Shown: positions 5,851 to 64,000 of the stretch, in pieces
Layout of the letters: each line of letters starts with the position of its first letter
How positions within the stretch are numbered: the first letter of the stretch is position 1
Made by a program: the position numbers and the translations under genes
Source of the DNA: Mesorhizobium liriopis
GTDB lineage: Bacteria > Pseudomonadota > Alphaproteobacteria > Rhizobiales > Rhizobiaceae
Direction of reading: 5' to 3'
Assembly (NCBI RefSeq): GCF_024053505.1
Contig: NZ_JAMXQS010000005.1
Location: 62,001 to 126,000, forward strand
DNA length: 64,000 nucleotides
Notes under the pieces: generated by a model
The model's input: only the letters and a program-made list of their open reading frames with translations
The model's database searches: none
What the model was told of the DNA's origin: nothing

Positions 5851-6087
5851 CGCATGAGCTGCGGAAGGCATCGCCCGCTAGCACGAAGCCTTGCGGCAGG
5901 TCGAACGCCTGCGCTCAGGTAAAGCCCGGCAAGATGGTGTTCATGTCGGTTGGCATGGCGATCCCATGGTGAGTAGAGCGATGAGCATCGTGTTATCGAT
6001 TGCTCAACTGCGTCGACGGTCAGGTCCGGCGTTAAGGAGGTCCAAACCCTCGGCGTCAGACTGCTTAGGTTCCTTCACGGCTACCAG

Positions 6088-7735: not shown

Positions 7736-8641
7736 CTAGCCGGCCTCGACGCTGTTTTGACGTGCGAACCGGATGGGTGGCACACCCACGAACCGGGTGA
7801 ACGCGACACTGAAGGCACTGGCGGATCCGTATCCGACGGTTTCAGCAATCTCCTTCACTCCGCCGTCCCCTTGCCGCAACATGTTCCTGGCAAGGGCCAT
7901 CCTCCACGACAGGAGGTACTCCATCGGCGGCACACCAACCTCCTTCCGGAACCTGTCGAAGAACACCGAGCGGGACATGGATGCCTCTTTCGCCAATCGT
8001 CCTACCGTCCAGCCGTGACTGGGATTACGGTGGATGCAGCGTATGGCGCTGCCCAGCCTGGCGTCCGCCAGTCCCCGGAGTAGTCCCGGCGGAGCAGTAT
8101 CGTCCGACGCGGCCCGCAATGCCTCGATGAGCAACACGTCGAGCAGGCGCCCTATGACCATCTCCCGAGCGGGCCTATCGTCTCGCGCCTCGTTCCTTAC
8201 GAGTTGCACCAGTGTGGCGACCCGCTTCAGCCCCCGAACGTGGATGAACTCGGGAAGGAGGGACAGGAGCAGTTCGGCATCGGGCGATCCGAAGGCAAGG
8301 CGGCCGGCCAGCATGCGCACGTCCGCGGGTCCTTCCAGATCGCCGTGCCTCATCTCGTCATCCAGCATGGAATGGACTGACTGCCCTTTGGGTGGACCGC
8401 CGTCGAGGCTGCTCATTGTGAAGTCACGAGCCGCTGGAACGAGCACGAAGTCGTTCTCCTTCAGCTCCAGCTGCGGACGTCCTTCCAAGGACAGCAGCAC
8501 GCCTCCCTCCAAGATCGCGCAAAACAGGGGATCGTTCGTCACCGACACGTCGATCCGCCACGACCCCGCGCCACTTGCCTGCTTCGAGAAGGGCAGGCTT
8601 GGCTGGAGCAGTGCCACCACCTCGGCGAAGGGATCAGTCAT
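7736..8641 (-). CDS. AraC-family transcriptional regulator with cupin sensor domain
   Basis: 301 residues from the ATG at 8641 (MTDPFAEVVALLQPSLPFSK). The N-terminal half is the cupin of the AraC_binding type seen next to short-chain dehydrogenases (SGAGSWRIDV, LKENDFVLVPAARDF). The C-terminal 100 residues hold two helix-turn-helix units, including LAKEASMSRSVFFDRFRKE and IAETVGYGSASAFSVAFTRF. It is divergent from the SDR gene at 8740 across a 98-bp gap, the classic arrangement for controlling that gene. The inducer is unknown. Confidence 0.88.
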   Translation of the reverse strand: MTDPFAEVVALLQPSLPFSKQASGAGSWRIDVSVTNDPLFCAILEGGVLLSLEGRPQLELKENDFVLVPAARDFTMSSLDGGPPKGQSVHSMLDDEMRHGDLEGPADVRMLAGRLAFGSPDAELLLSLLPEFIHVRGLKRVATLVQLVRNEARDDRPAREMVIGRLLDVLLIEALRAASDDTAPPGLLRGLADARLGSAIRCIHRNPSHGWTVGRLAKEASMSRSVFFDRFRKEVGVPPMEYLLSWRMALARNMLRQGDGGVKEIAETVGYGSASAFSVAFTRFVGVPPIRFARQNSVEAG

Positions 8642-8739
8642 TTCTGGACGCTCGCGAATGCTATACGGACTTGCGATGATAGGAAGTCTGGATGACGGCG
8701 TCCACATGTCTCCCGTGCACAAGCACGAAAGGAGAAACC

Positions 8740-9495
8740 ATGAACACCGTCCTCATCACAGGCTGCTCGTCCGGCTTCGGGCTCGACATTGCCAAACATT
8801 TCCTCGGGCAAGGTTGGAGGGTCATCGCGACCATGCGCACGCCTGACGAGAGCGTCCTCCCCGCTTCGGAACACCTCCGCATCCTGCCGCTTGATGTCCG
8901 AAGCGATGAGAGCGTCAGGCAAGCAGTCGAGGCAGCAGGCCCGATCGACGTTCTCGTCAACAATGCGGGCATCGGCTGGTTGAACGCTCTCGAAGGCACG
9001 CCGATGGATATCGCGCGAGACATCTTCGAGACCAACACGATCGGGACCATGCGGACCATGCAGGCCGTCCTGCCGCAGTTCCGCGAACGGCGGTCGGGCA
9101 AAATCGTGAACGTGACTTCGACGGTCACGGTGAAGCCGCTGCCGCTCCTTTCTGTGTACACGGCCAGCAAGGCGGCGGTGAATGCCTTCACCGAATCCGT
9201 CGGAATCGAACTCGAGCCGTTCGGCATTGCTGTTCGCATCGTGTTGCCAGGCCTCGCGCCCGAGACGAGCTTTGGCAAGAATGCGTTCGGTCGCATTGAG
9301 GGCGCGGGCGGATTTCCAGAGCCCTATGCGGACTTCACGAACGCGACAGTCGAAAAGATGCGGCAGCACTCCGGTCCGGTCACCAGGTCGACTGATGTTG
9401 CAGAAGCCGTCTGGCGCGCTGCAACCGACCCAAGTTGCCCGATGAAGCTTCCGGCCGGAGCCGACGCGGTGGCCGCGGCCGACTGGGACGCCTGA
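8740..9495 (+). CDS. SDR family oxidoreductase
   Basis: 251 residues. The start at 8740 is chosen because AAAGGAGAAACC precedes it and the Rossmann motif begins directly (NTVLITGCSSGFGLDIAKHF, TGxxxGxG). NNAG is at about residue 73 and the catalytic Ser and YxxxK are in NVTSTVTV..LLSVYTASKAAVN. This is a classical NAD(P)-dependent short-chain dehydrogenase of the kind paired with AraC regulators. The C-terminus (GVxVxxVLPG then TDVAEAVW) fits the family. Substrate unknown. Probably activated by the divergent AraC protein. Confidence 0.88.
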   Translation: MNTVLITGCSSGFGLDIAKHFLGQGWRVIATMRTPDESVLPASEHLRILPLDVRSDESVRQAVEAAGPIDVLVNNAGIGWLNALEGTPMDIARDIFETNTIGTMRTMQAVLPQFRERRSGKIVNVTSTVTVKPLPLLSVYTASKAAVNAFTESVGIELEPFGIAVRIVLPGLAPETSFGKNAFGRIEGAGGFPEPYADFTNATVEKMRQHSGPVTRSTDVAEAVWRAATDPSCPMKLPAGADAVAAADWDA

Positions 9496-55574: not shown

Positions 55575-56240
55575 GCTCTTTCCCTGCTTTCGATTGGCGT
55601 TCCGCTTGCCGGTTGCGCCGGGCCGTTCTCAACGCTTGAGCCTAACGGACCGGCGGCCGAGAGGGTCGCAACGCTCTGGTGGGTGATGTTGGGCGGAAGC
55701 GCTCTGATCTCAACCCTTGTGGCCGTTTTGATTGTCGTGGCGTTCGTCAAACGCGACAGCGAGACGCGCGTCAGCCCGAAACTCTGGATCGGCGGCTTTG
55801 GGCTCGGCTTCACGTCCGCCGTGCTCATGGCGCTGCTCGCCTACGCGCTGGTGCTGGGCGAATCCACGCTGCCGACCCCGCGCGACGGCACAGTGGCGGT
55901 GGCGGCCGAAGGGCGGCAGTGGGACTGGCGGTTCCGCCAGCCGGGGGTCAGTGGCGAGATCGCGACGGAAGGCGTACTCAACATTCCGGTGGGCGTGCCG
56001 GTCGATGTGCATATCACCACGCAAGACGTGATCCATTCCTTCTGGGTGCCGCAACTGGCTGGCAAGATGGATGCCATTCCCGGCAAGACGAACGTGCTGC
56101 GCATCGAGGCGAGTCTGCCCGGCACCTATGAGGGCCGCTGCGCCGAGTTCTGCGGGATCGGCCACGCGGGCAACGTATTTCGTGTCGTCGCTCATGATGC
56201 CGACGGCTGGGCCGCGTTCCAGCGGAGTGAGCCCCGATGA
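55551..56240 (+). CDS. coxB: Cytochrome c oxidase subunit II (no haem c domain)
   Basis: 229 residues from a TTG at 55551; no ATG or GTG fits before the lipoprotein signal LSLLSIGVPLAGCAG, so the start is uncertain. Two membrane helices, then a cupredoxin domain with HSFWVPQLAGKMDAIPGKTN and CAEFCGIGHAGN. The CuA cysteines, Glu and His are present, but the position of the Met ligand (HxxM) is Asn. No C-terminal cytochrome c, unlike the first cluster's subunit II. Overlaps coxA by 4 bp. Confidence 0.88.
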   Translation: MVGGGRAHALSLLSIGVPLAGCAGPFSTLEPNGPAAERVATLWWVMLGGSALISTLVAVLIVVAFVKRDSETRVSPKLWIGGFGLGFTSAVLMALLAYALVLGESTLPTPRDGTVAVAAEGRQWDWRFRQPGVSGEIATEGVLNIPVGVPVDVHITTQDVIHSFWVPQLAGKMDAIPGKTNVLRIEASLPGTYEGRCAEFCGIGHAGNVFRVVAHDADGWAAFQRSEPR

Positions 56241-58741
56241 CCACCCGATTGACCGCATTGGGCCGCCATCGCGCGCTCGACCGCATCTGGGGGACGCCGA
56301 AGGGCTGGCGCGGCACGCTGCAGTCGGTGAACCATTCCGATATCGGCAAGCGTTTCATCCTCGCAAGCTTCTTCTTTTTCGCGGTCGGCGGCGTGCTCGC
56401 CATGCTGATCCGCGCACAATTGGCCACGCCCAACAGCGCATTCGTCGGACCCGACATCTACAACCAGCTCTTCACGATGCATGGCAGCATCATGATGTTC
56501 TTGTTCGCCATTCCCATGTTCGAAGGGCTGGCGCTCTACCTCTTGCCCAAGATGCTCGGCAGCCGCGACATGGCGTTCCCACGCCTCTCCGCCTATGGCT
56601 GGTGGTGCTACCTGTTCGGCGGCACAATCCTGCTTGTTGCGCTCGCGCTCGGCGTCGCGCCCGATGGTGGCTGGTTCATGTATCCGCCGCTGTCCTCGAA
56701 ACCCTTCACGCCCGGCATCAATTCCGATGTCTGGCTGCTTGGCATCACCTTCGTGGAAATTTCGGCGGTGGCAGCGGCCGTCGAGATCGTGGTTTCGATC
56801 CTGAAACTGCGCGCGCCAGGCATGCGGCTCGACCGGATGCCGCTTTTCGCATGGTATCTGCTCGTCACCGCGCTCATGATGGTGGCGGGCTTTCCGCCAC
56901 TGATCCTGGGATCGATCCTACTCGAAGCGGAGCGTGCCTTCGACTGGCCCTTCTTCGACCCCGTGCGCGGCGGCGACCCGTTGCTCTGGCAGCACCTGTT
57001 CTGGCTGTTCGGCCATCCGGAAGTCTACATCATCTTTCTGCCAGCTGCCGGCGTCGTTTCTACCGTGTTGCCGGTGATGGCGCGCACACAAATCCTCGGC
57101 TACGGCGCGATCGTAGCGGCCATCCTAGCGCTCGGCTTCCTAAGCTTCGGGCTCTGGGTCCACCACATGTTTACGACTGGCATTCCGCACATGGCGCTGG
57201 GTTTCTTCTCGGCGGCCTCGGCATTGGTCGCGATCCCCACCGGTGTGCAGATCTTCGCTTGGATCGGCACGCTGTGGGGTGGGCGACCGGACGTGCGTCT
57301 GCCCATGCTCTACCTGCTCGGCTTCTTCGTGGTGTTCGTGCTCGGCGGACTGACGGGTGTGATGCTGGCGGTGGTGCCTTTCGACTGGCAAGCGCATGAT
57401 AGCTATTTCGTGGTCGCGCACTTGCATTACGTTCTGGTCGGCGGCTTCATCTTTCCGATGCTGGCCGGCGCCTACTACTGGCTGCCGCATTTTACCGGTC
57501 GCGCGCGGGTCTTGCGCCTAGGCGAAGCCGCGTTCTGGCTGATCTTCATCGGCTTCAACCTGGCCTTCTTCCTAATGCACCTGACAGGACTTCTGGGCAT
57601 GCCGCGCCGGGTCTACACCTATCCGGACGGCATCGGCTGGACATGGCTCAACCTTCTATCGTCGGTCGGCTCCTTCGTGATGGCCTTCGGCTTCGCGCTG
57701 TTTGCCATCGACGTCGCCCTGCAGATCTTTCTTGCCCGCCGCGCGCCGCGGAACCCGTGGGGTGCGAACACGCTCGAATGGGCGATGGCGACGCCAGCAC
57801 CCGCCTACAACATCGCAAGCCAGCCGCATGTGAAAAGCCGCGAGCCTCTTGTCGACGATTCCGAATTGCCGGTACGGCTTGCGCGGGGCGAAGGGTACCT
57901 GGCGACGCCCCGCAATAACTGGCGCGAGACGATGGCCGTCGACATGGTGACGGGGCGGACTGACTTCGTCGCGGTGGTGCCGGGCAACACCTCTCTGCCG
58001 ATCATCACGGCGGCGGTGACGGGGCTGTTCTTTCTGTCGCTGCTGTTCGGTTTCTACTGGCTGGCACTTGCACCACTTGCCGGCGTCGTATTGCTCGGAT
58101 GGCGTTGGGCATGGACACTTGGATCACACGAAGATCTTGGTCCGCTCGATGCCGGGCGGGGTGAGGCGCTGCCGGCCCATTGGGAAGCACGCGAAGCGCC
58201 AGGCTGGGTGGGGAGCCTATTTCTGTTGGGTGCCGATGCGACGCTCGGCGCCTCGCTCCTTTTTGGTTATGCCTTTCTCTGGACGATAGCACCCAATTGG
58301 CCGCCACCGGAACTGGTCGCAGGTGGCTGGCCGGAAGCCTCTGCGGCCCTGCTCGGCGTGGCACTTGCCACCCTTGCCGCAGGCCGTACGACAGTGGCCG
58401 TGCTGGGCGGGAAGCTGGACAAGGCAAAGCGGATGCTGTTGCTTGCCGGCACCGCACAGGCTGTGGTGATCGTGGCTCTCGCTTCTCTGGTTCTGCGCCA
58501 TCTGCCCGACCCTACTATCCATGCCTATGGCGCGGCCTGCGCGACGCTCGTCGCTTACGCCGTGCTCCATGCGGCGATCGCCTTGATGATGGCGCTTTTT
58601 GTCAGTCGCCGGATCGCGGCGGGTTATGTGTCGCCCGCGCGCACTCTGGAGCCGCGCGTCGCGACGCTATTCACCGCGTTTGCTGGCGCCGCGACGGGGC
58701 TCGTGCTTCTCGCGCTGATGCTGCCAGTGATGCTCGCATGA
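56237..58741 (+). CDS. Cytochrome c oxidase subunit I-III fusion
   Basis: 834 residues. Residues 1-560 form subunit I with all haem/copper ligands: FTMHGSIMMFLFAIP, WLFGHPEVYIIFLP, LWVHHMFTTG and VVAHLHYVLVGG. After a linker (about 560-640) with one or two helices, residues 650-834 form a five-helix subunit III part (LGADATLGASLLFGYAFLWT, 'AYAVLHAAIALMMALFVSRR'). CoxA-CoxC fusions are known in caa3-type and related oxidases. Overlaps coxB and the following small gene by 4 bp each. Confidence 0.93.
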   Translation: MTTRLTALGRHRALDRIWGTPKGWRGTLQSVNHSDIGKRFILASFFFFAVGGVLAMLIRAQLATPNSAFVGPDIYNQLFTMHGSIMMFLFAIPMFEGLALYLLPKMLGSRDMAFPRLSAYGWWCYLFGGTILLVALALGVAPDGGWFMYPPLSSKPFTPGINSDVWLLGITFVEISAVAAAVEIVVSILKLRAPGMRLDRMPLFAWYLLVTALMMVAGFPPLILGSILLEAERAFDWPFFDPVRGGDPLLWQHLFWLFGHPEVYIIFLPAAGVVSTVLPVMARTQILGYGAIVAAILALGFLSFGLWVHHMFTTGIPHMALGFFSAASALVAIPTGVQIFAWIGTLWGGRPDVRLPMLYLLGFFVVFVLGGLTGVMLAVVPFDWQAHDSYFVVAHLHYVLVGGFIFPMLAGAYYWLPHFTGRARVLRLGEAAFWLIFIGFNLAFFLMHLTGLLGMPRRVYTYPDGIGWTWLNLLSSVGSFVMAFGFALFAIDVALQIFLARRAPRNPWGANTLEWAMATPAPAYNIASQPHVKSREPLVDDSELPVRLARGEGYLATPRNNWRETMAVDMVTGRTDFVAVVPGNTSLPIITAAVTGLFFLSLLFGFYWLALAPLAGVVLLGWRWAWTLGSHEDLGPLDAGRGEALPAHWEAREAPGWVGSLFLLGADATLGASLLFGYAFLWTIAPNWPPPELVAGGWPEASAALLGVALATLAAGRTTVAVLGGKLDKAKRMLLLAGTAQAVVIVALASLVLRHLPDPTIHAYGAACATLVAYAVLHAAIALMMALFVSRRIAAGYVSPARTLEPRVATLFTAFAGAATGLVLLALMLPVMLA

Positions 58742-59463: not shown

Positions 59464-60300
59464 CTATCTGCCCGGGTAGTAAAGCGCAAGCGGCGGCAGC
59501 TTGGGTGTCCAGTCATCCAGGACAGTTACCAGTCGTCCCGCCGCTACATCTTCGCGCACATCCGACTCCATTATATACCCCAATCCGATACCGCTCATTG
59601 CCGCAATTCGCACTAGACTCGGCTCATCAAGCGTAATCGCGCCCTGAACATCAATTTGCACAGCGCTCCCCTCTTTTTCGAAGCCCCAGCGAAGTAGCGC
59701 GTTGTTGGGGAGGCGCGCCCGAATACAGCGAAAGCGATAGAGATCGCTGGGCACGACCGGGTGTCCATAGGTGCTTAAAAAGTCCGGAGAAGCTACAACT
59801 GCATTTCGACGCGGCATTCCGAGTGAGATGGCGATCATGTCACTCGGCACAAGATCGGCAGACCTCACGCCCATGTCGTAACCGCCGGCGACGATATCAA
59901 CCAATCGCCCCTCTGTAACCAAGTCGATGTGCACCTGCGGATAGCGTTGCAGAAACGACAGAACGAGTGGCGCCATTACCTCCCGTGCTGCAGATGCATA
60001 GGTGTTTATGCGCAGAGTGCCCATCGGTATCTGCTGTAGCGACTGCGCGGCCAGCATCGCATCATGGATGTCAGTCATCGCCGGGCTGACCCGCGCCACG
60101 AAGTTCTGTCCGGCCTCCGTCAGCGATACGCTTCGTGTGGTCCGGTTAAACAGCCGGACCCCGAGATGGCGCTCGAGCTTGGCAATGGCGTTGCTTAGCG
60201 ACGTTGTAGACATCCCAAGGTCAAGGGCGGCCGCCCTGAAAGAGCCCATTCGGGCAATGCTCAGGACCGCATCAAGGTCCGCCAGTAGCGATCGCGTCAT
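59464..60300 (-). CDS. LysR family transcriptional regulator, C-terminally truncated by a stop codon
   Basis: 278 residues from the ATG at 60300 ([20 protein letters not shown]). HTH '[20 protein letters not shown]', effector domain '[20 protein letters not shown]'. The frame stops at a TAG right after [10 protein letters not shown], where this subgroup continues. Beyond it the same frame reads NPPAAFSAFVQVAREFAATN to a TGA at 59380, giving the usual 306 residues. The last helix is therefore lost. Divergent from the SnoaL-SDR operon, its likely target. Confidence 0.85.
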
Positions 60301-60436
60301 AGTCCCTCTTTTCGTAATTCCACATCCTGCTTTGTCCCAATTATCACGGCAATGGCCAAGGCATAGGTTGTTAGTGCCGGCCCACAAAGGTCGGGCATGC
60401 GGCCAGTGAGGGCGCGACAACAATCCGGAGATTACC

Positions 60437-60766
60437 ATGACGATTAAACTACCCAAGGCTATTGAAGCCTATTTCGAGGCCGACCGAAGCGGCGTCCCTG
60501 ACGCTATCGCAGCGACTTTTTCGGAAAACGGCACGGTGAAAGACAAGGGCCAAACCCATCGCGGACGTGACGCCATCCGTGCCTGGATGGCTGCTGAGGC
60601 CCAGCAGTATAGCTATACAGTGGAGCCCTTCCTGGTCACCGCCGAGAACGGCAAGACGCTCGTAACGGCGCACGCTGTTGGCGACTTCCCTGGCAGCCCG
60701 ATCGACCTCAGGTTCTTCTTCGTCCTTTCGGGAGACAGGGTTGCCGAGCTGGAGATCACGGTATGA
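60437..60766 (+). CDS. SnoaL-like (NTF2-fold) protein
   Basis: 109 residues. Cone-shaped alpha+beta domain pattern: [20 protein letters not shown], '[23 protein letters not shown]', '[15 protein letters not shown]'. Such proteins act as small isomerases, hydrolases or accessory binders. Its stop overlaps the next SDR start (ATGA), so the pair is coupled, and the LysR gene is divergent. Confidence 0.88.
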
Positions 60767-61542
60767 CACCGTTCATCAGCCTCCAGGGCCGCCGTGCCCT
60801 GATCACCGGGGGCACCTCAGGTGCTGGGGCAGCAACCGTGGCGCTCTTTCAAGTGCTTGGCGCCCGCGTACTTACTACCGCACGCACCAAACCGACAGAC
60901 TTCTCCGGTGCCAGCTTCATCGAAGCAGACCTGACGACCAAAACGGGGGTCCAGTCCGTGGTTGACGCGGTGCAGGAGGAGTTCGGCGGGCTCGATATCT
61001 TGATCAATGTACTCGGTGGATCATCTGCCCCCTCAGGCGGCTTCGCCGCACTCTCCGACGAGGAATGGGACAAGGAGTTCGCCCTCAACTTCTTTCCAGC
61101 TGTCCGGCTCGATCGTGCACTCATCCCCAGCATGCTTGATCAGGGAACCGGCGTCGTTATCCATGTCACTTCGATCCAGAACAGACTTCCGCTGCCGGAG
61201 GCGACGACCGGCTACGCTTCGGCTAAGGCGGCGCTGAACACCTACAGCAAAAGCCTTTCCAAGGAGGTGTCTCCGAAGGGCGTACGGGTGGTGCGGGTAT
61301 CCCCTGGCTGGATAGCCGATCGGGGCACGAACGGTCTGGCCCTGCGCATCGCCGAGCAAGCTGGCATCACATACGACGAAGCTGTGCAGATGATCATGAA
61401 CTCGCTCGGCGGCATTCCGTTGGGGCGACCGGCTGCACCGGAAGAAGTGGCCGACTTGATCGCGTTCCTAGCATCGGATCGGGCCGCATCCATCACGGGC
61501 ACGGAGCACGTGATCGACGGTGGGACGGTTCCTACCGCGTAA
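60763..61542 (+). CDS. SDR family oxidoreductase
   Basis: 259 residues. Cofactor motif [20 protein letters not shown], a variant [11 protein letters not shown] in place of NNAG, catalytic '[24 protein letters not shown]' and the C-terminal '[15 protein letters not shown]'. Classical SDR; substrate unknown. Cotranscribed with the SnoaL-like protein gene. Confidence 0.9.
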
Positions 61543-61613: not shown

Positions 61614-62408
61614 ATGAGCATTACCAACAAGACCATACTTGCCGCTGCTGCGGCGTCATTGATTGCAACGGTTCCGGTCGCTCAGGCTCAGGAACGCAAT
61701 GCCTCGCCCCAGCCGGTTCGCAATGTGGTGTTGGTGCATGGAGCCTTCGCCGATGGCTCCGGCTGGCGCGGGGTTTATGATAACCTGACTGCCCGTGGCT
61801 ACAATGTCACCATCGTCCAGAACCCCCTGACCTCGCTGGCAGATGACGTCGCTGCAACCCGTCGTGTACTCGACCTGCAGACCGGACCGACCATTCTCGT
61901 CGGCCACTCATGGGGCGGCACGGTCATTACTGAAGCCGGTGTCCATCCTAAGGTTGCCGGGCTGGTCTATGTGTCGGCTCTGTCGCCCGACGCCGGCGAG
62001 ACAACTGCGCAGCAATACGAAGGCTTCGCGCCAACTCCAGACTTCGTGCTCGATGTGCGTCCCGATGGGTTTGGGTTCATTGATCCCTCCAGATTCAAGG
62101 CCGGGTTCGCGCATGATACCACCGACAATGAGGCAGCCTTCATGCGGGACTCGCAGGTTCCGATCAACATGTCGGCGTTTGGCACCAAGCTGGAAAATGC
62201 TGCGTGGCGCAACAAGCCAAGCTGGTCGGTTATCGCAACCGAGGACAAGGCCTTCGATCTGGCGATGCTACGACATATGGCCAAAAAGATCAGCGCAACG
62301 GTCACCGAAGTCTCGGCGAGCCACGCTGTCTTTATGACGCAACCCGAAGTCGTCTCGGATACCATTGATGAAGCGGCGCACACCACTGGCCTCGCCGCTG
62401 CTAACTGA
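61614..62408 (+). CDS. Secreted alpha/beta hydrolase
   Basis: 264 residues, preceded by AGGAGAC. Signal peptide ILAAAAASLIATVPVAQAQE. Core: VVLVHGAFADGSGWRGVYDN, nucleophile elbow VGHSWGGTVI, 'IATEDKAFD' acid and ASHAVFMTQPE His. The group is commonly annotated as alpha/beta hydrolase of the EstC/salicylate-esterase-like type. Periplasmic. Stands 71 bp after the SDR gene and may share its transcript. Confidence 0.9.
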   Translation: MSITNKTILAAAAASLIATVPVAQAQERNASPQPVRNVVLVHGAFADGSGWRGVYDNLTARGYNVTIVQNPLTSLADDVAATRRVLDLQTGPTILVGHSWGGTVITEAGVHPKVAGLVYVSALSPDAGETTAQQYEGFAPTPDFVLDVRPDGFGFIDPSRFKAGFAHDTTDNEAAFMRDSQVPINMSAFGTKLENAAWRNKPSWSVIATEDKAFDLAMLRHMAKKISATVTEVSASHAVFMTQPEVVSDTIDEAAHTTGLAAAN

Positions 62409-62635
62409 GAGTTATTGGGGTGAGCGCGACCTTGTTGTGCCCACCCCGCTTTACGATGGCTGCAAGCAGTCGAAACCGGTTGATCGTTCGGTACATAAAT
62501 CAAGATTTGTGCACCCAGCGACTGATCGCTTTCGACCCATGTCGGTCGGTCATCGAAATGCTCAGGCTGATCTGAAGCGGACGTAGATGCGTTCGGCTGG
62601 AACACGAGCAACGTTGAATGGAAATGCTGCTGGCA
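62409..62635. other. Intergenic with a weak repeat trace
   Basis: Around 62540-62587 the pieces CCATGTCGGTCGGTCATCG, AATGCTCAGGCTGATCTG and AAGCGGACGTAG recall the 5' half of the interspersed repeat. Match is partial. No gene. Confidence 0.3.
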
Positions 62636-62662
62636 TGTCACATCCGGCTCGCTCGGCTCGTC
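62636..62662 (+). promoter_or_regulatory. ECF41-type sigma factor promoter
   Basis: TGTCACA (62636-62642), 16-bp spacer, CGTC (62659-62662), 48 bp before the start codon of the AhpD-like gene. This is the bipartite promoter known for ECF41 sigma factors, whose partner genes are carboxymuconolactone decarboxylases, oxidoreductases and epimerases. Confidence 0.7.
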
Positions 62663-62709
62663 CTCCCTTTGAACGTCGATCTTCGGCGTTCCGAGCAAAA
62701 GGACGAGAC

Positions 62710-63165
62710 ATGAGCGAGAACATGCGGTTGGTCTGGAACGAAGTGGCGCCGCAGGGTGCCAAGGCGCTCTATGGCATCCACCACTACATCACGACGGGCA
62801 CCGATCTGCCACATGAGCTGATCCACCTTGTCTTCCTACGCGTCTCGCAGATCAACGGCTGCGCGCACTGCATCGACCTTCACACCCGGGACCTGCTGAA
62901 GACGATGCCGCTTGATAAGGTGGTCCTGGTTCCGGTTTGGGCCGAAGTGCCCCACCTGTTCTCCGACCAGTACCGCGCCGCACTTGCCTGGGCGGAGGAG
63001 GTCACACGGGTCAGCGAGACGCACGCCACCGATGAGGCCTACACAGCCGCAAGCGCTGCCTTCGCTCCCAAGGACCTCGTCGACCTGACGATTACGATCG
63101 CTGCGATGAACGCGTTCAACCGTCTCGGCGCGCCCTTCCGCCTCCCGGTCCAGGCGAAAGCCTAG
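62710..63165 (+). CDS. Carboxymuconolactone decarboxylase family protein (AhpD-like)
   Basis: 151 residues from the ATG at 62710. The redox motif CAHCIDLHTRDLLKT (CxxC with downstream His) near residue 56 and 'LPHELIHLVFLRVSQINGCA' are the AhpD-fold hallmark, and it ends 'ITIAAMNAFNRLGAPFRLPV', typical of peroxidase-like CMD proteins next to ECF41 factors. Cytosolic; likely a thiol peroxidase or alkylhydroperoxidase. Driven by the ECF41-type promoter upstream. Confidence 0.9.
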   Translation: MSENMRLVWNEVAPQGAKALYGIHHYITTGTDLPHELIHLVFLRVSQINGCAHCIDLHTRDLLKTMPLDKVVLVPVWAEVPHLFSDQYRAALAWAEEVTRVSETHATDEAYTAASAAFAPKDLVDLTITIAAMNAFNRLGAPFRLPVQAKA

Positions 63166-63275
63166 TCCGTTCTGCTGCTTCGTCAGGAACGGCGCCAATG
63201 CCGTCCCGCCCGCCGACGTTGATCGATCCTGCCCGACAATTCCGTACTTCACGTCGCTAATTTTTCCCAGGGCAT

Positions 63276-63303
63276 GTCACATCCGGCCCGGCCCACCTCG
63301 TCA
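63276..63303 (+). promoter_or_regulatory. ECF41-type sigma factor promoter
   Basis: TGTCACA (63276-63282), 17-bp spacer, CGTC (63300-63303), 67 bp before the NAD(P)-binding protein gene. It shares GGCATGTCACATCCGGC with the promoter at 62636. Confidence 0.7.
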
Positions 63304-63369
63304 TTGTTCGACGGAAGCCGAAAGCGGCATGGAGCCGCCCCGTTCGTTCTCGAACAAGGAGAAGGTAAG

Positions 63370-64000
63370 ATGAAGATCGTGGTGATTGGAGGCAGCGGGC
63401 TCATCGGTCGGCACCTGACAGCCGAACTCTCGCGGCAAGGGCATGGAGCCATCGCGGCATCGCCCAGAAGCGGGGTGAACGCGCTGACGGGCGAGGGGCT
63501 CGCGGAGGCTCTTTCCGGAGCCGGTGCTGTGGTCGACGTGTCGAACTCGCCCTCTTTCGAGGACGCGGCGGTGCTCGACTTCTTCGAGCGCTCCGGCCGC
63601 AACCTCGTCGCCGCCGAGCGCGAGGCGGGTGTGAAGCACCACGTCGCCCTGTCCATCGTCGGCACGGACCGCCTCAAGGGGAACGGCTACCTCCGGGCCA
63701 AAGTCGTGCAAGAACGACTCGTCAAGGACGCAGGCATTCCCTTCACCATCGTACGCGCGACCCAGTTCTTTGAGTTCGTCGCCACCATCGCCGAAGCCTC
63801 CGTCGACGGCGACCGCCTCATCGTACCAGATGCCGACTTACAGCCCATCGCCGCCGCCGATGTCGCCGCAGCACTTGCCGATGTCGCGCTCGCTCCGCCG
63901 CGCAATGCGACGATCGAGATCGCCGGACCAGACCGCCAGCCGTTCCGTGACTTCGTTGCCCGCCGCATCGCCGCCAATGGCGACTATCGGGAGGTGCAGG
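63370..64000 (+). CDS. NAD(P)-binding oxidoreductase (atypical SDR), right-truncated
   Basis: Starts at 63370 after AAGGAGAAGGTAAG and runs off the right edge (210 residues visible). Rossmann motif IVVIGGSGLIGRHLTAELSR, then 'VVDVSNSPSFEDAAVLDFFE', 'HVALSIVGTDRLKGNGYLRAK', 'TIVRATQFFEF'. This is the NmrA/SDR-a type oxidoreductase that forms the second partner class of ECF41 sigma factors. Its promoter fits that. The sigma factor gene itself is not in the window and may follow on the right. Confidence 0.88.
   Translation, partial: MKIVVIGGSGLIGRHLTAELSRQGHGAIAASPRSGVNALTGEGLAEALSGAGAVVDVSNSPSFEDAAVLDFFERSGRNLVAAEREAGVKHHVALSIVGTDRLKGNGYLRAKVVQERLVKDAGIPFTIVRATQFFEFVATIAEASVDGDRLIVPDADLQPIAAADVAAALADVALAPPRNATIEIAGPDRQPFRDFVARRIAANGDYREVQ

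Follow-up and report, generated by a model that had tools for sequence, protein, structure and literature searches.

Near the right end of a 64,000-nucleotide stretch of the Mesorhizobium liriopis genome, hereafter called the window, two promoter words of the ECF41 type stand in front of two adjacent genes. Which sigma factor would read these words, and are the two genes controlled together or one by one? The ECF41 promoter has been described as TGTCACA-n16+/-1-CGTC (Wecke et al. 2012, PMC3426412). P1, the putative promoter of the first gene, is an exact TGTCACA-N16-CGTC match on the plus strand at 62636..62662, and P2, the putative promoter of the second, is an exact TGTCACA-N17-CGTC match on the same strand at 63275..63302. 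Both words were found exactly where an initial annotation had reported them. Comparison within the window also reveals an extended word, GGCATGTCACATCCGGC, common to the two sites. With the spacer allowed to vary from 15 to 18 nucleotides, P1 and P2 are the only 2 matches in the 64 kb window; shuffled versions of the window contain 0.11 matches on average, and 0/100 reach 2. The complete 4.48 Mb genome contains only 2 strict sites, but the reversed-pattern control gives 2 + 2, so that the genome-wide count is not above chance and carries no weight. It is the position and the conservation of the sites that exceed chance. Among 15 + 6 looser sites checked in the same genome, 19/21 lie inside open reading frames, on one strand or the other, that are 100 codons or longer, the two exceptions being L018 and L138, and no further ECF41 targets are proposed in this genome.

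P1 precedes the gene of a CMD/AhpD-like protein of 151 residues (62710..63165, plus strand), which contains a CxxCxxxH motif (CAHCIDLH) and scores 43.4 bits against Pfam CMD (cut-off 23) and 35.7 bits against TIGR00778 (cut-off 27.8). P2 precedes, across a gap of 204 nt between the two genes, the gene of an NAD(P)H-binding, NmrA/epimerase-like protein of 249 residues (63370..64119, plus strand), which runs past the end of the window at 64000. This protein exceeds the Pfam cut-offs for NAD_binding_10 (39.2 bits), NmrA (30.4 bits) and Epimerase (24.2 bits). The starts of the two genes at 62710 and 63370, as originally called, are consistent with the aligned leaders of their relatives. The second gene had been described as an oxidoreductase; it is indeed predicted to bind NAD(P), but by its NmrA and Epimerase matches it belongs to the 'epimerase' class of the published COE genes and not to the 'oxidoreductase' class.

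No ECF sigma factor gene is visible in the window, and the regulator had been guessed to lie just past 64000 or elsewhere. When the sequence was read 10 kb further to the right, an ECF41/SigJ-type gene was found to start 659 bases beyond the window end (64659-65564 in the window frame, plus strand). Its product reaches 381.5 bits with the SigJ model NF007214 (cut-off 271), whereas its 300.0 bits against NCBIfam TIGR02957 (SigX4) fall below the curated cut-off of 323.25. Sigma70_r2 (50.7 bits) and Sigma70_r4_2 (43.8 bits) both exceed their Pfam cut-offs. The best solved relative by sequence is Mycobacterium tuberculosis SigJ (PDB 5xe7, E 5e-49), which is also the top structural match of a moderately confident AlphaFold2 model (pLDDT 74.5, pTM 0.57); about a third of the residues are identical (33-34%). 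The C-terminal extension, residues ~165-290, is predicted to be an alpha+beta domain, and it has fold matches of the NTF2/limonene-epoxide-hydrolase type. On the evidence of the model this extension is a SnoaL/NTF2-like fold. The SnoaL-like extension foreseen by the initial annotation was found by fold prediction, the Pfam SnoaL_2 score of the C-terminal part (22.1 bits) being below its cut-off of 27.

Several short motifs are shared widely among the sigma proteins of the homologous loci. WLPEP, at residues 84-88 in the linker between sigma2 and sigma4, is present in 73/81 of them, DGGGK (at 202) in 76/81, and NPDKL (at 279) in the form NPDK[LF] in 79/81. Three conserved motifs characterize the ECF41 extension, and DGGGK and NPDKL are candidates for two of them, although the text of PMC3426412 does not spell the motifs out. 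A search of the genome with the sigma protein matched no other gene at E values up to 0.001. No anti-sigma family was matched in the scans of the CMD, NmrA-like, cupin and hydrolase proteins, nor among the best 25 matches of the SDR. The N-terminus of the cupin, judged by eye, resembles a signal peptide, which would speak against a cytoplasmic anti-sigma role for that protein. By its region 2 and region 4 core, its extension, the WLPEP motif, the adjacent COE genes and the promoter, the predicted protein is an ECF41 sigma factor.

The sigma gene is part of a row of closely spaced genes that all point in the same direction. A cupin gene (64161-64577 in the window frame, plus strand; Cupin_2, 43.0 bits) lies between the NmrA-like gene and the sigma gene, and an SDR oxidoreductase gene (65663-66628 in the window frame, plus strand) lies to the right of the latter; the matches of these genes beyond the window (cupin, sigma factor and SDR) include NCBIfam NF004845 with 455.1 bits (cut-off 414). 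The gaps are 41 nt from NmrA to cupin, 81 nt from cupin to sigma and 98 nt from sigma to SDR. Two terminator-like sites were found, a number at chance level (2.7 in shuffled sequences); one falls within the sigma gene, the other upstream of P1, and neither separates the genes of this row. The spacing suggests co-transcription, and P2 is predicted to head an NmrA-cupin-sigma(-SDR) operon. The SDR gene follows the sigma gene in 11/21 close loci. P2 does precede the oxidoreductase gene to which it had been assigned, but probably serves more than this single gene, as the cupin, sigma and SDR genes follow at such short distances.

The conservation of the sites was examined in 80 loci retrieved by similarity to the sigma protein, without use of the promoter (the best 80 of 164 relatives). 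These loci contain 91 strict N16-17 sites on the strand of the sigma gene and 2 on the opposite strand, compared with 1 and 0 for the reversed control. All of the sigma-strand sites (91/91) are located upstream of the sigma gene, at a distance of at most 2,100 nt. At least one strict site is present in 73/80 loci and absent from 7/80. A second set, restricted to the organism's own family and covering 1.5 kb on each side of the sigma gene (less at contig ends), gave a strict site near the sigma gene in 25/30 loci, counted by hand. One of these is the locus studied here (L101) and three (L102-L104) apparently repeat L062, L023 and L028; of the 26 new loci that remain, 22 have a strict site near the sigma gene and four (L105, L117, L124 and L127) do not. 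Immediately upstream of the sigma gene, that is within 250 nt, no strict site was found in 79/80 loci, L074 being the exception, and for this reason P2 is likely to be the promoter through which the sigma factor feeds back on its own gene.

The consensus of 87 distinct promoters is CA-TGTCACA-TCCGG ... CTCGTC, in which TGTCAC and CGT were fixed by the search pattern and the remaining positions were free. The A before TGTCACA is present in 99% of these promoters, the C before that A in 90%, and TCCGG after TGTCACA in 62-75% per position. The extended word that had been pointed out as shared by P1 and P2 is real, but for the most part it reflects the consensus that such sites have in general. 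Of the 21 close loci, counting the present one, 19 have a strict P1 and 20 a strict P2; a relaxed pattern finds P1 in 20 and P2 in 21, the P1 site of L033 having a changed first base. The exact sites, the neighbouring sigma gene and the conserved loci together bear out the original proposal that the promoters are of the ECF41 type and precede the kind of genes that go with an ECF41 factor.

Two or more strict sites are found on the strand of the sigma gene in 19/81 loci, namely 18 close loci and L069, where tandem separate sites stand one before NmrA and the other before CMD. A divergent pair is found in L162, with a minus-strand word (one change) before CMD and a plus-strand word before the NAD(P)H-binding gene. 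L078 also has divergent sites, both strict, and the -35 elements of the L078 and L162 pairs are 37 and 38 nt apart. The back-to-back pair of L163 resembles these two, with one word altered. Separate CMD and NmrA promoters therefore occur in more than one arrangement. L028 keeps both promoters, but between its NmrA and sigma genes the cupin gene is absent or a remnant.

Relatives of the enzyme genes are also found on plasmids, and nine such loci were examined, out of the 25 matches listed (623 records in all). Three of them have an adjacent sigma gene (L157, L162 and L163) and a strict site. Six have relatives of some of the enzyme genes and no adjacent sigma gene (L158-L161, L164 and L165), and no strict site was found in these. 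In rhizobial plasmids L158, L161, L164 and L165, NAD(P)H-binding or SDR genes together with cupin genes follow a gene for an Rrf2 regulator; CMD is present in three of these loci, L164 having no annotated CMD. The Rrf2-linked clusters resemble the present locus in having relatives of its enzyme genes side by side. They differ from it in gene order, in the transcription factor gene that replaces the sigma gene and in having no strict ECF41 site, which indicates that related enzymes go with different regulators.

Four other readings of the two sites have to be weighed against control by the ECF41 factor next door. The shared word GGCATGTCACATCCGGC might be coding, since it can be read as ATG-TCA-CAT-CCG, the start of a common N-terminus (MSHPA) of both proteins, and in the window both frames are indeed open and in phase (ORFs 62587-63165 and 63274 onward). 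The relatives, however, lose the frame: it is free of stops in only 13/20 P1 and 11/21 P2 homologues, and conservation is concentrated in the two elements TGTCACA and CTCGTC and in the later part of the leader, the stretches between them varying in length by 1-2 nt. A coding origin of the word is extremely improbable and has been rejected. It is also very unlikely that P1 and P2 are read by another sigma factor, be it the housekeeping factor or one of a different ECF group, with the ECF41 gene as an incidental neighbour. CGTC is common to many ECF promoters (PMC3426412) and cross-talk is possible, but TGTCACA is reported in the same paper to be specific for ECF41. Moreover, strict sites accompany an ECF41 gene in 73/80 loci and are absent from the six sigma-less plasmid relatives.

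The remaining two readings concern the division of labor between the sites. P1 might read through CMD to the sigma and SDR genes in one long operon, with P2 as an internal booster only. All genes being on one strand, and the 204 nt gap between CMD and NmrA containing neither terminator-like site, would fit this reading, but P2 is conserved no less strictly than P1 (20 and 19 of 21), and the NmrA promoter is kept in loci where no upstream CMD relative was found (L038, L040, L041, L042 and L044). We regard the long operon as rather unlikely, although it is compatible with a separate P2 unit and both can hold together. The initial annotation had taken the presence of two promoters to mean individual control, with different outputs. 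The spacers do differ consistently, being 16 in 20/20 P1 sites and 17 in 19 and 16 in 2 of 21 P2 sites; the leaders differ as well, and separate CMD and NmrA sites recur, in tandem in L069 and divergent in L162. However, one sigma factor and the same core motif would impose a shared on/off switch, and only strength or post-transcriptional fate could then differ. Separate transcription units are thus upheld, whereas individual control is a possible but somewhat doubtful reading: both sites match the genome's single ECF41 factor, and co-control is the simpler explanation.

By analogy with Sinorhizobium meliloti RpoE9, whose printed promoter ends with a G nine bases after CGTC (PMC6180224), P1 transcripts are predicted to start at the G nine bases after CGTC and to have a leader at 62671..62709 on the plus strand; a G is found nine bases after CGTC in 67% of the 87 distinct promoters. 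By the same analogy we infer that the P2 RNA would begin at about 63310, at a G eight bases after CGTC and beside the stem of a conserved stem-loop (63312..63346, plus strand). The structure has an outer stem, 63312-63317/63341-63346, and an inner hairpin, 63324-63328/63334-63338. In an alignment of P2 leaders from 25 loci (24 distinct rows; L033, identical to L032, was omitted), helix 2 is paired in 90% and has two-sided changes at 3/6 pairs, and helix 3 is paired in 97.5% of the 24 leaders. RNAalifold finds largely the same two helices. Overall, 85.2% of the cells are paired, against 36-58% in slid versions, and 0/500 shuffles are as high. The 14 cells with a two-sided change were reached by 0/500 shuffles and the covariation score by 2/500, but the 8 pairs with two-sided changes were reached by 24/500 and the 19 further pair types by 140/500. 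Helix 1 is 74.6% paired, lies mostly upstream of the predicted start site and is not claimed. In the leader of the present locus one pair of helix 2 is an A-G mismatch, the fold of this sequence taken singly departs somewhat from the common one, and the folding z is only -1.2. Rfam contains no match for the P2 leader up to E 1. With the shuffle controls mixed, the alignment gives moderate support to a conserved stem-loop in the P2 leader.

A leader hairpin as a general feature of ECF41 promoters did not hold up. The mean longest stem is 4.90 in 31 distinct CMD leaders from outside the close group (200 shuffled sets, 3.69; highest 4.10) and 5.49 in 37 distinct NmrA leaders (shuffled, 4.54; highest 5.16). 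However, 21 P1 leaders, from 20 close loci and L039, show no excess of hairpins (3.81 versus 4.25 shuffled), and the excess was not reproduced in 24 further own-family leaders (3.50; shuffled, 3.33; highest 3.83), where the first 38 nt and loops of up to 8 were used instead of whole leaders and loops of up to 10. The general feature was rejected after these two failures and the stem-loop was kept for the P2 leader alone. A perfect 5-7 bp hairpin a short distance upstream of the ribosome site, with differing stem sequences, was noted in the CMD leaders of L048, L049, L051, L059, L064, L068, L075, L079, L093 and L095-L097; it was not reproduced in the second set.

The limits of the conserved unit were located by BLASTN of 14 kb around the own locus (L003, in which positions are window positions minus 60000) against 27 loci, using the plus strand and pieces longer than 80 nt. 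Similarity begins at L003 2524-2633 in 20 close loci and in the plasmid copy L157, within about 0.1 kb upstream of P1. It ends in 11 loci at L003 5524-5730, close to where the sigma gene stops or in the first SDR codons, and in 9 loci at L003 6696-6744, just past the SDR gene. The match of L027 stops at 5905, at the end of its contig, and L028, one of the 9, matches in two pieces without the cupin region. Outside the cassette another match is seen in L025 alone (8553-8968); the other 6 loci match parts of the cassette only. Such sharp edges of similarity, bounding the same unit in unrelated contexts, are the mark of a mobile cassette.

The distribution of the sigma proteins points in the same direction. 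Short branches of their tree mix Aurantimonadaceae, Xanthobacteraceae, Alsobacteraceae, Rhizobiaceae, Methylobacteriaceae and a record labelled Enhygromyxa, and within the own family a sigma protein of at least 90% is present in only 4/151 genomes, the next best being 62%. When labelled on the tree, the two-promoter group is not one clade (3 changes), because the one-promoter loci L038, L039, L041, L042 and L044 fall among its members. L029 (labelled Enhygromyxa, Myxococcota) and L068 (labelled Mucilaginibacter, Bacteroidota) sit among the alphaproteobacterial ECF41 loci, which reflects contamination or else transfer over a long phylogenetic range. A mobilizable plasmid of Methylobacterium oryzae (L157) carries both promoters and the form with four genes, and this is the only copy in which an IS3 transposase gene was seen, about 0.3 kb downstream. 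The similarity edges and the plasmid copy suggest that the locus is probably a mobile cassette, and its promoters, targets and regulator appear to have been inherited and transferred together.

No cassette-end repeat was found among the 20 repeat families listed out of 21. An imperfect direct repeat (18/21) lies outside the edges of the own cassette, at window positions 62494-62514 and 66761-66781 (L003 6761-6781); 0/60 shuffles of the right flank reach 18/21, the highest being 15. Of six loci tested, the flanks of L026 contain a 16/21 direct repeat (0/60 shuffles) and those of L062 a 15/21 repeat (1/60), and those of L021, L022 and L028 nothing above chance. GGAAGCGGAC, considered as a cassette-end repeat, was dropped: it is present in several flanks and absent from the window, and GGAAGCGGACNT occurs 5 v 7, 11 v 9, 5 v 16 and 22 v 11 times against its reversed control in four genomes.

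Left of the cassette, the window contains genes for a small SnoaL-like protein (60437-60766), an SDR (60763-61542) and an alpha/beta hydrolase (61614-62408), as well as a LysR-like gene on the minus strand (59464-60456), read from the sequence. Relatives of the SDR and the hydrolase, together with LysR and NTF2-like genes, likewise flank the ECF41 locus of the Novosphingobium plasmid L162. Further left, the translation of an 834-residue open reading frame (56237-58741) looks like a fusion of cytochrome oxidase subunits I and III.

Taken as a whole, the locus is very probably best explained by a single ECF41 sigma factor, with its gene toward the right end of the cassette, that serves both P1 and P2, feeds back on its own synthesis and is transferred jointly with its targets. 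In the proposed mechanism, a small ligand or a stress would relieve inhibition by the fused SnoaL-like domain, and the freed sigma factor would bring core RNA polymerase to P1 and P2. P1 would then yield the CxxC-containing CMD/AhpD-like protein. From P2 would come the NAD(P)H-binding protein of the NmrA type and the cupin, together with the sigma factor (plus the SDR). As the sigma factor would be made from P2, a positive feedback loop would result. The products may form a small set for redox reactions or the handling of electrophiles. The sequences and positions, their conservation and the family membership are direct observations, whereas the dependence on the sigma factor, the operon, the feedback, the redox role, the transfer and the function of the leader are all inferred from sequence. 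A more elaborate version, in which this mobile, self-feeding cassette of two units has its P2 stem-loop at or near the 5' end of the sigma mRNA to set stability or translation, is speculative and quite unlikely. If true, the feedback gain would be tuned at the RNA level and P1 would be a plain output. Two ECF41 promoters, one of them predicted to feed the sigma gene, constitute an internal pair in which a spacer of 16 versus 17 and output versus feedback can be compared. Furthermore, a compact cassette of promoters, targets and regulator would be easy to clone whole into a host lacking ECF41 and to screen for the signal.

The nearest known systems are ydfG/ecf41 of Bacillus licheniformis and RSP_0606/0607 of Rhodobacter sphaeroides, which share the promoter and a COE gene beside the sigma gene (PMC3426412). 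COE genes with this motif are activated by the ECF41 factors of these two species (PMC3426412) and of S. meliloti (PMC6180224). The ECF41 loci described in PMC3426412 also resemble the present one in the WLPEP motif, in the C-terminal extension and, within its accessible text, in having no anti-sigma gene; in four cases they include cupin-fold genes oriented as the sigma gene, as is the cupin here. Where the order is COE-ECF, the promoter is usually before the COE gene and absent before the ECF gene, a rule that P2, as the likely source of sigma mRNA, would match. The same paper concluded that each ECF41 factor has one target gene or operon, and no inducing condition was known in 2012. S. meliloti RpoE9 with SMb20029 provides another parallel, its target being a CMD gene, and the extended edges of the printed promoter, CCATGTCACA...CTCGTC, agree with those of the present consensus (PMC6180224). 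RpoE9 differs in having one target, with CMD and sigma genes probably cotranscribed, and the accessible part of that report mentions no NmrA/cupin unit. In contrast to the loci of PMC3426412, two COE classes are present here at one locus, each with its own promoter. In the accessible ECF41 literature we found no locus described as having two COE genes that each possess a promoter, although one may be in print. Against these published cases, two target units for one ECF41 factor would be an extension rather than a repetition. An ECF41 factor of Azospirillum, which controls motility according to a title cited in PMC8999054, is likely to be an exception to the single-target rule. The regulatory mechanism proposed here is a known and ordinary one for ECF41 factors; it is the layout in two units that is somewhat unusual.
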